Positions 27,911 through 31,840 of a stretch of 43,900 bases of DNA are shown here, piece by piece. The translations under genes and the position numbers were made by a program. The stretch lies in the NCBI GenBank assembly GCA_017438265.1, contig JAFRVZ010000056.1, positions 1 through 43,900 of the forward strand, read 5' to 3'. Position 1 is the first letter of the stretch; each line of letters starts with the position of its first letter. The notes under the pieces were generated by a model, which worked only from the letters and a program-made list of their open reading frames with translations, did no database searches and had not been told where the DNA came from. Source of the DNA: Bacteroidales bacterium. Lineage in GTDB: Bacteria > Bacteroidota > Bacteroidia > Bacteroidales > UBA932.

Positions 27911-29257
27911 TCAGATTGCGAAATACGGTTGAAACAGGCCGACCTTTGCCCAGCGCATCGGCCGGTTTTTTTCTGCCTCCCCGGGCGCGCAGGAGGGCTT
28001 CAGGTGCTCCACGGCGGCCTCCAGCCCCAGCGAGGCCATCTGCCGGAGGAACGCGTCCTCGAAGTCCCGCTCCGCGATGCGGCGCGAGAAGTGGAGGTTC
28101 AGGCGGCCGCCATAGCTCAGGCAGGCGACGGAGCCGGAGCGCTGGCGCGTGCGGCCGAGCATGAAATCGACGTCGCGGACGTGCGCGGCCATCGCCTCCG
28201 GGAGCACGATGTTCCCGAGGTTGGAGAGGACCTGCGAGCAGTAGTTCTCCCCTTTCAGCCGGTTGATGATGTTGATGGCGGGGCGCTTGATGAAGATGGG
28301 GAGGCAGCGGATGGCGAGGTTGTCTTCCAGCGCGACGTTGGCCGCGATGCGGGTCGTGAGGCGGCGGGCGTTCACGAAAAGGCGCTTCTGCTGCTTCACC
28401 TCCGCGAGGATCTCCGGGAAGGTCATGGGGCCGTTGGCGACGTCGGTGCCGACGTGGACGTAGGAGGAGAAATTGCGGAGCGTGGCGCTGCCGAAAATGG
28501 GCCGCAGGTTGACGGGAATCTCGAGCTTGAGGCTCGCGCGCTTGCGGGGGCGCGGATCCGCTTCACGCACCTGCTGGAGGGAATGGATCATCACGGCGGC
28601 GAGGAATTCCGTGACCGTGACGCCGAAAGCTTCCGCCCGGGCGCGGACGGCCGCGGAGGGGAAACTCATCTTGATGTCGTTGAGCTCGCTCCGGCCGAGG
28701 ACGGTGCCGCGCACGTGGTAGGCGCGCTGCTCCCGGTCGAGGCTGCCCCGCATGCCGGAGAAGGCGTCGAAGCTGTCCTCCAGCTCCGCGGCCTGTGGCT
28801 CCTGCGCCGTGTCGAGGATCCACTTCCCGGCAGGGATGTCGCTGCCGTAGCGGAGCTTCAGGTATTCGGCGGTCAGGGTCAGCAGGAAGGTCATTCCCCC
28901 GGTACCGTCCGTGAGGACATGGAACATGTCGAGGGTGATGCGGTTCCCGCCGGCGCCGACCTTGAACATATAGCCGCCGTTGCGGCGGAAGTTGAAGGGA
29001 CGGTGGGCCGGGACCGGTCCGGACACGGGCGCGTTCTCCAGGCGGCGCAGGAACCACCAGAAGACGCCCTTGTCGAGCGTATAGCACAGACCCGGAAAAC
29101 GCCTTGCCGTCGTCTGCAGCGCCGCATTGAGCAGGGTGGAATTGACCGGCTCGTCGAGCGCGACGGCCATCCGGTAAAGGGTCGCATATTTCCTGGTCTT
29201 GCAGGAGGGGTATATGATGGACGCATTGTCCAGTCGGATCCATTCGGGAGCTTTCAT
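27911..29257 (-). CDS. CAT-superfamily acyltransferase (WS/DGAT or alcohol acetyltransferase-like)
   Basis: A 448-residue protein of the chloramphenicol-acetyltransferase/condensation fold. The catalytic motif HVLTDGTGG (HxxxDG) lies near residue 115, preceded by NRITLDMF; the second half has LKLEIPVNLRP and NFSSYVHVGTD, typical of the DFGWG side of such enzymes. There is no signal peptide. Wax-ester synthases, alcohol O-acetyltransferases and polyketide-associated acyltransferases share this fold, so the acceptor is unknown. I chose ATG 29257 (MKAPEWIRLD): upstream in-frame codons extend to 29416 but run through the promoter region shared with the LytTR gene. A minus-strand -7 box TACCTTTG lies at 29292-29285. 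Confidence 0.75.
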   Translation of the reverse strand: MKAPEWIRLDNASIIYPSCKTRKYATLYRMAVALDEPVNSTLLNAALQTTARRFPGLCYTLDKGVFWWFLRRLENAPVSGPVPAHRPFNFRRNGGYMFKVGAGGNRITLDMFHVLTDGTGGMTFLLTLTAEYLKLRYGSDIPAGKWILDTAQEPQAAELEDSFDAFSGMRGSLDREQRAYHVRGTVLGRSELNDIKMSFPSAAVRARAEAFGVTVTEFLAAVMIHSLQQVREADPRPRKRASLKLEIPVNLRPIFGSATLRNFSSYVHVGTDVANGPMTFPEILAEVKQQKRLFVNARRLTTRIAANVALEDNLAIRCLPIFIKRPAINIINRLKGENYCSQVLSNLGNIVLPEAMAAHVRDVDFMLGRTRQRSGSVACLSYGGRLNLHFSRRIAERDFEDAFLRQMASLGLEAAVEHLKPSCAPGEAEKNRPMRWAKVGLFQPYFAI

Positions 29258-29284
29258 CACAGTTCGGTTTTCAGTTTTCGGAAG

Positions 29285-29292
29285 CAAAGGTA
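29285..29292 (-). promoter_or_regulatory. -7 box for the acyltransferase
   Basis: The minus strand reads TACCTTTG, an exact TAnnTTTG match, 27 bases before ATG 29257. A TTG lies 24 bases further upstream, longer than the usual spacing, so the -33 element is unsure. Confidence 0.45.
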
Positions 29293-29340
29293 GCGCGGGG
29301 CTGCACGGCGCGGAAGCAATCGCCACCAGAGAGGCCTCTA

Positions 29341-29435
29341 TGTGATAAAAAGCCGGTTTTTGTGACGAAACCCTTGGGATATTGTGACAAAATCGGAAAA
29401 GTATTATATTTGTCACAACGAAAAATGTGACTAAA
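29341..29435. promoter_or_regulatory. Phased TGTGAY repeats, candidate operator
   Basis: Four direct copies of TGTGAY-NAAA occur: TGTGATAAAA (29341), TGTGACGAAA (29361), TGTGACAAAA (29383) and TGTGACTAAA (29426). The steps are 20, 22 and 43 bases, about two, two and four helical turns. One inverted copy, GTCACA, lies at 29412-29417. The copy at 29383 overlaps the -33 TTG. LytTR proteins are known to bind 9-bp direct repeats about 21 bases apart, so control by the adjacent LytTR protein is a reasonable inference. Confidence 0.6.
29382..29412 (+). promoter_or_regulatory. Bacteroidota-type promoter of the LytTR-polymerase operon
   Basis: TTG (29382-29384), a 20-base spacer, then TATATTTG (29405-29412), an exact TAnnTTTG. 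It is 27 bases before ATG 29440 and embedded in the TGTGAY repeats. Confidence 0.7.
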
Positions 29436-29439
29436 ACCG

Positions 29440-30252
29440 ATGGGAACCTACCTGAAGTCCTATAAGCGCTTCTTCCCGAACCTGATCTATGTGCTCGTGA
29501 TGATGGCGTGCTTCCTGGTCTGCGCGATGATGTACGAACCGCGCCCGATGCAGGAGATCCTCCACGCCGGCGAAGCGGCGCTGGGGAAAGAAAACCTGTT
29601 CTACTTCAACGTCTCGATCCTGGAAGCCATCATCCTCGTGGTCCTGACCCTCACGCGCCTGGTTTTCTACCTGATGCGGAACCGGCTCGACATGAACCTG
29701 CTGAACTACAGCGTCTGGTGTGTCCTGGAAATCGTGGCCATTTCCGTCTTCGGCGCCCTCTACCTGGCGCTGATGGACAAGGGCGGATACTTCCCCTTCC
29801 TGGCCAAGACCCTCTACGCAATGCTCGCCGTGCTGCTGATCCCGGTCGCCATCATGACCCTGGTCTCGGTCTTCAAGGAAGCCGCGACCGCCGAACCGGC
29901 GGACGAAGGAGCCCGGCTCAAGTTCTACGACAGCCGCCACCAGCTGAAGTTCATCACCTCCGCCGCCTCCATCCTCTATATCGAGGCCAACGAGAACTAC
30001 ATCATCATCCACTACCAGGAGAACGGGATCGAGAAACAGTTCCAGATCCGGAATTCGATGAAGAACATCGAGCCGCTCTGCGAGCGCGCGGGCTTCGTGC
30101 GCACGCACCGCAGCTACATCGTGAATCCAGTCCACATCCGGATGGTCCGCAAGGACGTGAACGGACTCTATTTCGCCGACCTCGGCACCGAGAAGAAGGA
30201 CGGCATCCCCGTCTCGAAGAAATACTACGACAACGTGACCGCCGCCCTGTAG
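29440..30252 (+). CDS. Four-helix membrane-bound LytTR transcriptional regulator
   Basis: The 270-residue protein has four predicted membrane helices (about residues 13-33, 57-78, 88-110 and 119-143), then a linker, then a LytTR DNA-binding domain from about residue 165: FITSAASILYIEANENYIIIHY, FVRTHRSYIVNPVHIRMV and IPVSKKYY. There is no receiver domain and no kinase; the membrane part probably senses a signal or interacts with a membrane partner. Such one-component LytTR proteins are common in Bacteroidota. Its stop TAG overlaps the GTG start of the polymerase gene (TAGTG), so the two are translationally coupled. Phased TGTGAY repeats in its own promoter suggest self-regulation. Confidence 0.9.
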   Translation: MGTYLKSYKRFFPNLIYVLVMMACFLVCAMMYEPRPMQEILHAGEAALGKENLFYFNVSILEAIILVVLTLTRLVFYLMRNRLDMNLLNYSVWCVLEIVAISVFGALYLALMDKGGYFPFLAKTLYAMLAVLLIPVAIMTLVSVFKEAATAEPADEGARLKFYDSRHQLKFITSAASILYIEANENYIIIHYQENGIEKQFQIRNSMKNIEPLCERAGFVRTHRSYIVNPVHIRMVRKDVNGLYFADLGTEKKDGIPVSKKYYDNVTAAL

Positions 30253-31649
30253 TGGAGAACCGGACCTACCTCGCCATCGACTTGAAGTCCTTTTATGCGT
30301 CCGTGGAGTGCGTGGACCGCGGACTGGACCCGCTGCAGGCCTATCTGGTCGTCGCCGACGCCAGCCGGACGGAGAAGACCATCTGCCTGGCGGTCTCCCC
30401 CGCGCTGAAAGCGTTCGGCATCGGCGGGCGGGCGCGCCTTTTCGAGGTCGTGCAGCGCGTGAAGGAGATCAACCGGGGCCGCCGCGAGCCCCTCGAATAC
30501 ATCACCGCGCCGCCGCGGATGGCCCGCTACATGGAGGTCAGCCGCCAAATCTACGACATCTACCTGAAATACATCTCCGCAGATGACATCCACGTCTACT
30601 CCGTCGACGAAGTCTTCATCGACGCGACCGACTACCTGCGGCTCTACCGCTGCGACGCCCACACGCTGACGATGCGCCTGATCCGGGACATCCTCGCGAC
30701 GACCGGCATCACGGCCACGGCCGGCATCGGGACGAACCTGTACCTCGCCAAGGTGGCGATGGACATCGTCGCGAAGCACAGCGCGCCGGACAAGGACGGC
30801 GTCCGGGTCTCCCGGATCGACGAAATGGACTACCGCCGGCTCCTCTGGGACCACACGCCCATCACGGACTTCTGGCGCATCGGCCACGGGACGGCGCGCC
30901 GGCTCGAGCAGGCCGGCATCCGGACGATGGGCGAAATCGCCCGCTGCTCCCTGGAACCCGCCTGGGAGGAATTCTTCTACAAGTCCTTCGGCGTGGCCGC
31001 GGAGCTGCTGATCGACCACGCCTGGGGCTGGGAGCCCTGCACGATGGCGGACATCAAGCGGTACCGGCCTGCGAGCAGCAGCCTGAGTTCCGGCCAGGTC
31101 CTGGCCGAGCCCTACAGCTGCGCCAAGGGGCGCATCATCGTCCGGGAAATGGTCGAACTGCTGGTCCTGGACCTCGTGGAGAAACGGCTGCTCGCGGACC
31201 AGATCGTGCTGGACATCCACTACGACACGACGAACGTGACCGACCCGGAGCGGAGGAAACGCTACAAGGGCCCCGTCGTCAAGGACTGGTACGGGCGGCC
31301 GGCCCCCAAACCGGCCCACGGTTCCCGGAATTTCGGCCGCAAGACCTCGTCGACGGCCCTGATCGCGGAGGCTGCGATGGAACTCTTCGACGCCGTGGCG
31401 GACAAGGACCTGCTCATCCGCCGCCTCAACGTCACCCTCTGCAACGTCGTCCCGGAAGACCTGGCGGAGGGCCGCCAGATGGACCTGTTCACCGACGAGG
31501 CGGCACTGGAGCGGGAACGCCGGCAGCAGGAGACCATCCTGGAAATCCGCCGGAGATTCGGCAAGAACGCCATCCTGAAGGGCGTCAACTTCGAAGAGGG
31601 GGCGACGACCATCGAACGCAACAAACAGATCGGAGGGCACAAGGCATAA
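30252..31649 (+). CDS. Y-family DNA polymerase, UmuC/DinB-like
   Basis: A 465-residue translesion polymerase. The GTG start at 30252 overlaps the upstream stop (TAGTG) and gives [19 protein letters not shown]; the frame is open further upstream, but that part lies inside the LytTR gene. Catalytic acidic residues are in [12 protein letters not shown] and [31 protein letters not shown] is the conserved palm/fingers motif. Thumb and little-finger parts follow, and QMDLF at about residues 409-413 fits a sliding-clamp binding motif. The length and composition resemble the UmuC/YqjW-like group of Gram-positives and gut anaerobes rather than short DinB. Its place behind a membrane LytTR regulator is unusual. 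Confidence 0.9.
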
Positions 31650-31651
31650 CG

Positions 31652-31840
31652 ATGGACGACATCCTGAAAAAATACGGGGACATCCTCTCGCTCCCCCACC
31701 ACCGTTCCAAGACCCACCCGCCGATGAGCCGGGCGGACCGGGCGGCGCAGTTCGCGCCTTTCGCCGCCCTCACGGGCTACGGGGACCTGATCCACGAGAC
31801 CGCGGAGCGGAAAGCCCGCGAGGAAGACGCTACTCGTTAG
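31652..31840 (+). CDS. Small YolD-like protein
   Basis: A 62-residue protein beginning 2 bases after the polymerase stop codon. It contains [19 protein letters not shown], a line I associate with small proteins encoded beside UmuC-like polymerases in Firmicutes and related to YolD, a family sometimes described as a functional counterpart of UmuD. It has no membrane segment or cysteine. A role as a polymerase accessory is inferred from this pairing. Its last 11 bases overlap the convergent transporter gene. Confidence 0.75.

Follow-up and report, generated by a model that had tools for sequence, protein, structure and literature searches.

Introduction

The closest described relatives of the system studied here are the YqjW-YqjX and UvrX-YolD pairs of the Bacillus subtilis type, which the available parts of the sources present as a putative mutasome and in which a YolD-family gene lies directly 3' of a Y-family polymerase gene (PMC6511836, PMC12926913). 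We analyzed a locus in which such a pair follows a gene for a membrane-anchored LytTR regulator, on a contig of 43,900 nucleotides (nt) from a Bacteroidales bacterium of the UBA932 lineage (assembly GCA_017438265.1, contig JAFRVZ010000056.1, positions 1 to 43,900), hereafter called the window. The locus shares the order of polymerase and YolD-type gene with the Bacillus pairs, and differs from what is described of them in its Bacteroidota host, in that LexA control was not found, in a small subunit that consists of the arm only, and in the LytTR gene that leads the operon.

The regulator resembles those of LRS-like operons in Bacteroides, where LytTR proteins have transmembrane segments and 11-bp repeats lie 11 bp apart and 11 bp upstream of the promoter, as far as the accessible text of the source describes them (PMC6193735). 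The window shares with LRS and LRS-like systems, so described, several transmembrane segments in the LytTR protein, direct repeats of 11 bp spaced 11 bp apart, a repeat that ends 11 bp before a putative -33 element, and a TAnnTTTG sequence at -7. Unlike them, it has an operon of LytTR, polymerase and YolD-type gene that lacks a separate gene for a membrane inhibitor, its cargo is a polymerase, and it has extra repeat copies over the -33 and -7 elements and beside the start codon.

Two SOS-type systems are also relevant. The non-canonical LexA regulon of Bacteroidetes likewise includes error-prone polymerases and belongs to the same phylum, while neither of the palindromes given in the consulted part of that source occurs in window positions 29258-29440 (PMC8565304). 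Pol V (UmuDC) resembles the window pair in being an error-prone Y-family enzyme whose gene has a small partner, whereas the window pair has no S24/UmuD partner. The titles and abstract openings of the literature searched gave no account of a LytTR-polymerase-YolD arrangement.

Results and Discussion

Our results make it likely that the window genome holds two independently conserved modules that are now adjacent, that the polymerase level follows the LytTR promoter, and that the link between regulator and polymerase is incidental.

The window is one contig (43.9 kb) of a 1.74-Mb assembly in 75 contigs that is 88% complete. Three open reading frames (ORFs) lie in tandem and were all confirmed by sequence, ORF list and domain scan. 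The first (29440..30252, + strand) encodes a protein of 270 amino acids (aa) with four hydrophobic segments (residues 11-29, 58-76, 94-112 and 127-145) followed by a LytTR DNA-binding domain (Pfam LytTR, E 3.5e-17 over residues 174-269). This bears out the four-helix LytTR regulator described in a sequence-only reading of this DNA. Among 53 LytTR homologs, window included, four segments were scored in 46, three in 6 and five in 1. The second ORF (30252..31649, + strand) encodes a 465-aa Y-family DNA polymerase of the UvrX/YqjW type, with Pfam matches to IMS (2.5e-27), IMS_C (5.2e-10) and IMS_HHH (7.2e-6). Its GTG start shares 1 nt with the LytTR stop (TAGTG), so that the UmuC-like polymerase and its overlap with the regulator had also been recognized correctly. 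Residues D10, D119 and E120, which we take to be the catalytic carboxylates, are invariant across 12 aligned sequences, and a QMDLF stretch and a conserved C-terminal tail are visible by eye, without scoring against motifs. The third ORF (31652..31840, + strand) begins 2 nt past the polymerase stop (TAA cg ATG) and encodes a 62-aa arm-only protein of the YolD type. The earlier description of three genes without gaps is thus nearly right, with 2 nt between polymerase and small ORF.

The same reading had proposed a survey of LytTR-polymerase neighbourhoods, and unpaired genes in relatives had been set beforehand as evidence against it. We compared the window with 111 other polymerase loci, from 110 genomes of its genus and one genome of another family. 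One locus without the polymerase N-terminus was left out of the context counts, which gives 111 scored loci with the window included. Two plasmid loci and 80 named contigs (the best 80 of 591 confirmed) bring the other loci to 193, of which 185 are distinct since 8 of the 80 duplicate contigs among the 111. Flanks mostly covered up to 1.5 kb, about 6 kb for 13 loci and 3 kb for the 80 named ones; the upstream flank was shorter than 1.4 kb in 13, and shorter than 0.5 kb in 5, of the 110 scored loci other than the window. By tblastn (E <1e-4), a LytTR gene adjoins the polymerase in 1 of the 111 scored loci, i.e., in the window itself. A purpose-built LytTR-domain hidden Markov model detected no LytTR domain in the flanks of the 193 other loci; as a control, it recovered 52/52 training loci, and 25/25 and 29/29 (54/54) when halves were held out. 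From the opposite side, no polymerase was found in the flanks of 54 LytTR loci. The comparison of LytTR and polymerase places by coordinate covered the LytTR matches listed, down to about E 1.5e-40. The pairing is not conserved, and we rejected it as a conserved arrangement since it is absent from every relative examined. The window's sister on the polymerase tree (G298; support 92, not starred) has both genes on different contigs: the polymerase there shares 4 nt with a 4-alpha-glucanotransferase gene, and the LytTR ortholog is divergent to an acyltransferase gene.

The polymerase occurs in 111 of 300 genomes of the window's genus at E 1e-40 or better, and relatives of it turned up in 1788 plasmid records and 88 phage records. 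The best of the long matches listed are 57.5-58.4% identical to it; a single plasmid record falls between 60 and 80%. A YolD-type ORF stands beside the polymerase in 106 of the 111 scored loci and overlaps it in 84 of these 106. The polymerase lies no more than 40 nt behind a same-strand gene in 38 of the 111 loci, window included, with a 4-nt overlap in eight and a 1-nt overlap in five. A Pfam scan of the 37 abutting partners besides LytTR returned 51 families, with at most two members each (first 25 listed). Ten picked partners include GNAT, YitT, alanine-racemase-like, 4-alpha-glucanotransferase, RecX and DinB-like proteins, as well as ABC-F-like, RecQ-like and glycosyltransferase proteins and one without a Pfam match.

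The abutting loci also differ from the others in their promoter sequences. TAnnTTTG was found within 60 nt upstream of the polymerase in 2/38 abutting loci versus 47/67 other loci with a called neighbour, with 1-4% in shuffled sequences. Divided by context, the motif is present in 22/27 loci with a divergent neighbour at more than 40 nt, in 20/31 with a same-strand neighbour at more than 40 nt and in 5/9 with a divergent neighbour at a small gap; two of the six loci without a callable upstream gene have it as well. On the polymerase tree (FastTree, 109 rows), there are no fewer than 27 changes between the abutting state and the other state. We read the polymerase-YolD pair as a mobile cassette that would draw its expression from a -7 box of its own or from whichever unrelated gene lies directly upstream.

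For the window, we regard the polymerase as probably expressed together with LytTR because of the 1-nt overlap, the absence of TAnnTTTG from the LytTR ORF, and the conserved promoter and repeats upstream. Judging from the gene arrangement, LytTR, polymerase and YolD-type gene are probably co-transcribed and translationally coupled. An own promoter together with a LexA box of the polymerase had been named as evidence against control by the regulator; no TAnnTTTG was found in the LytTR ORF and no S24 or LexA-type domain in the 88%-complete assembly. A cryptic promoter within the LytTR gene, or some further regulator, could nevertheless drive the polymerase and make the LytTR promoter irrelevant. 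This is unlikely in our judgement: a TAnnTTTG box just upstream in 47 of the 67 non-abutting loci that have a called neighbour speaks for it, but that same box is missing from the LytTR ORF and from all except two of the abutting loci. It is also favoured by a single match to GGA-N5-TCC at 30198, inside the LytTR ORF, and by the occurrence of this motif within 120 nt upstream in 6/37 abutting relatives; among 49 own-promoter relatives it was found upstream in three, where 1.2 were expected.

The promoter to which we attribute the polymerase expression lies in front of LytTR and has an array of five TGTGAC-like copies, four direct (29340, 29360, 29382 and 29425) and one inverted (29409). This array and its TAnnTTTG box went unmentioned in the sequence-only reading and are conserved in LytTR orthologs. 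The operator-like repeat ATGTGATAAAA (29340..29350, + strand) was found by repeat search and ortholog comparison. The next one, TTGTGACGAAA (29360..29370, + strand), ends 11 nt ahead of the putative -33 element (29382-29385), which is overlapped by the third, TTGTGACAAAA (29382..29392, + strand), situated 11 nt past TTGTGACGAAA. The candidate -7 box (TAnnTTTG) for LytTR, TATATTTG (29405..29412, + strand), keeps its position in most orthologs and is overlapped by the inverted copy TTTGTCACAA (29409..29418, - strand), which is complementary to 29382-29391 at 10 of 10 positions. The last copy, ATGTGACTAAA (29425..29435, + strand), adjoins the LytTR start codon.

In each of the 30 orthologs with at least 44% identity, TGTGAC occurs at least once in either orientation, forward and inverted, against 0.03-0.10 per region expected from shuffling. 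Most copies hold their position relative to the LytTR start codon (near -94, -74, -52, -23 and -9), and 26/30 orthologs have TAnnTTTG 29-35 nt ahead of it. A dyad scan of the SOS-box kind recovered GTGA/GTCA dyads in 27-28 of the 30 promoters. In the 1.74-Mb assembly, the paired-repeat pattern occurs once, at the LytTR promoter, and the control gave 0. From this conserved array, we infer that the LytTR protein binds the repeats and regulates its own expression. Most likely the protein controls its own promoter through the TTGTGAC array, and perhaps also the divergent acyltransferase-like gene, for which a candidate TAnnTTTG -7 box, TACCTTTG (29285..29292, - strand), was found by motif scan. 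In the distant homologs L013, L018, L022 and L024, the core is GGGAC with GTCCC as its inverted form, and L018 retains one GTGAC. These variants look like an operator specificity that may be evolving together with the regulator. Tying GTGAC versus GGGAC to residues of the DNA-binding domain was given up as too unspecific, since 26 columns differ between the 34 and the 6 sequences.

The acyltransferase-like gene (27911..29257, - strand; 448 aa) is divergent to LytTR and has a weak Pfam AATase match below cut-off (E 0.029); a bile-acid-symporter-family protein is encoded on the other side of the operon. A homolog of the acyltransferase stands divergently beside LytTR in 29/32 orthologs, with match ends 173-203 nt apart, and of the remaining three, two have no acyltransferase in the flank and one has a weak match at 609 nt. 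Of the next genes called 3' of LytTR in these 32 orthologs, 13 lie no more than 40 nt away on the same strand, 9 lie farther away and 9 are convergent; in one ortholog no such gene was called. In five orthologs, a patatin-Omp85 homolog lies 2-4 nt 3' of LytTR. A second protein family without a Pfam match occurs within the LytTR flank in 17/32; from the N-terminus alone, we suspect it to be a secreted or outer-membrane protein. Neither family was found in the window, and a distant patatin-Omp85 relative lies elsewhere in the assembly (two aligned pieces, with 36 and 48% identity). Because of the acyltransferase-like and patatin-Omp85 neighbours in relatives, an envelope or lipid role of the LytTR regulator may reasonably be supposed, and no more than that. 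In four relatives that group together on the polymerase tree (L136, L142, L147 and L174; longer stretches L296-L299), the polymerase lies 43-70 nt after an acyltransferase homolog of 45-47% identity on the same strand. No LytTR was found near these four loci, even in the longer stretches.

In the reading that we favour, the first module would be a membrane-anchored LytTR regulator that acts on its own promoter through the TTGTGAC array, and the second a mobile polymerase-YolD cassette of the UvrX/YqjW type that settled directly behind it. Without a visible promoter of its own, the cassette would be expressed by read-through and by stop-start (TAGTG) coupling, and the polymerase level would thereby track the LytTR promoter. 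The cassette presumably joined a LytTR-acyltransferase pair that already existed at this site. As the relatives examined keep LytTR and polymerase apart, the arrangement looks like a one-off promoter capture and not a conserved stress-to-mutation switch. The sequence-only reading had suggested that a membrane sensor may control mutagenic repair directly; what remains of this is that the polymerase probably follows the LytTR promoter here. A dedicated switch is not supported, as the pairing occurs in no relative examined.

Such a switch, where LytTR would sense the membrane state and raise the polymerase as an evolved response to envelope signals, is distinctly unlikely. The operon with its 1-nt overlap, the promoter with conserved repeats, the lack of an S24/LexA-type domain in the assembly, and the acyltransferase-like and, in 5/32, patatin-Omp85 neighbours of the LytTR family are all compatible with it. 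However, the pairing is missing from every relative examined, and elsewhere the polymerase sits behind many unrelated genes with the same type of overlap. That the junction arose through faulty assembly or binning is hardly credible: the 75-contig assembly, the unique junction and the GC content (about 0.57-0.59 across LytTR, 0.67 across the polymerase) would allow it, but within a contig of 43.9 kb two intact ORFs share an exact 1-nt stop/start overlap, the acyltransferase gene alongside fits the conserved LytTR neighbourhood, and other genes on the contig also reach 0.65-0.67.

Several observations weigh against the reading of two incidentally joined modules. The arrangement is found in one genome with a fragmented assembly, too little to tell how old or how lasting the junction is. 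The calls of upstream genes come from a GC-frame heuristic, and some of those that give a same-strand gene at more than 40 nt resemble antisense ORFs. The sites of the polymerase may also be non-random, given the DinB-like, RecX and RecQ-like genes among the abutting partners and the four relatives that have it behind a homolog of the window's acyltransferase-like gene. At the LytTR promoter, the close orthologs L004, L112, L113 and L115 lack a TAnnTTTG box at the usual place. Additionally, just 6/22 LytTR homologs below 44% identity have both forward and inverted TGTGAC, and the array therefore belongs to the close LytTR family.

Error-prone polymerases had been assumed to be normally under LexA/SOS control. 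This premise is not simply transferable to the window, since both known Bacteroidetes SOS repressor groups are reported, in the part of the source available, to be absent from Bacteroidales (PMC8565304). The window assembly gave no match to the S24 peptidase domain (PF00717) or the LexA DNA-binding domain (PF01726), each of which was present in 10/14 control genomes, and a missing S24/LexA gene could possibly be hidden by the 88% completeness of the assembly. In the window's genus, PF00717 was found in 72/101 genomes (67 over cut-off) and PF01726 in 6/61, three of them over cut-off by less than 1.5 bits. Five SOS motifs, three of them taken from the accessible text of PMC8565304, are absent from 29258-29440. 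A hidden SOS box was also sought upstream of the 49 own-promoter polymerases, and none stands out clearly: the best dyad occurred in 5/49 versus 0.07 expected, and its excess of 4.9 is not clear of the shuffles, which reached at most 4.7 in 30.

Strong S24 genes (E 1e-10 or better) were found mostly in sister species without the polymerase-YolD cassette, many of them beside UmuC-like matches. In 101 genus genomes (G000-G036 and G061-G124, a range inferred from the listing), the polymerase was found in 42 and a strong S24 in 52; both occur in 7, the polymerase only in 35, S24 only in 45 and neither in 14. The two rarely co-occur (Fisher p 2e-9, uncorrected for shared ancestry). Taking S24 as UmuD rests on nearby UmuC-like matches that were compared by eye in part of the genomes. 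In one of the seven genomes with both (G012), the UmuC-like match beside S24 carries an in-frame stop.

The small protein had been called YolD-like, which holds in that the 62-aa ORF aligns with longer YolD-type relatives, several of them with sub-threshold matches to Pfam YolD. The ORF has no Pfam or NCBIfam match of its own at E 0.001, and it lacks the C-terminal SH3-like barrel of a full YolD. Of nine YolD-type proteins scanned, three matched PF08863 with 24.7, 16.3 and 13.6 bits, all under the cut-off of 27.5 bits. The lengths of the 106 YolD-type ORFs (L062-L074, L088-L111, L136-L209 and window 31652-31840) are bimodal, with 72 of up to 75 aa, 4 of 76-88 aa and 30 of at least 132 aa. Behind the 76 short and intermediate loci, window included, no barrel remnant was found at E 0.01 and one at E 0.031, in a search that recovered 30/30 long loci as a control. 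On the polymerase tree, there are no fewer than 15 changes between short and long forms, in a direction that cannot be told. An arm-only YolD variant is already described in the available part of PMC12926913; the arm-only kind is therefore known, and its repeated switching within one genus is new from our survey.

How error-prone synthesis is controlled in Bacteroidales without a known LexA is a question to which the survey suggests a testable answer, i.e., a mobile polymerase-YolD cassette on a bare -7 promoter or on the promoter of a neighbour, with no shared operator detected. This broader pattern, in which the cassette shows no detectable SOS operator and often relies on a neighbour's promoter, is a more interesting result than the proposed switch. 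As the promoter in front of LytTR looks regulated itself, the window makes a clear candidate for such borrowing. We would tentatively extend this to the idea, which we consider unlikely, that in an order without a known SOS repressor cassettes without dedicated damage control take their regulation from the promoter where they land, here that of an autoregulated envelope or lipid sensor. If this is true, mutagenic synthesis in the window species has become envelope-responsive. The repeat array also offers a ready target for binding studies of the membrane LytTR class, natural variants with GTGAC and GGGAC cores included.

A plasmid record that seemed to offer a second pair was rejected. The polymerase of CP033372 (L210:4995-6515) is labelled 'LytTR family transcriptional regulator', while the ORF in CP033372.1 has Y-family domains and one weak DUF3127 match in Pfam and no LytTR, and we take the name as a mislabel. 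CP033372.1 comes from a plasmid of Limosilactobacillus. Of the 15 polymerase homologs listed, 14 are named 'DNA methylase'; both labels look like errors.

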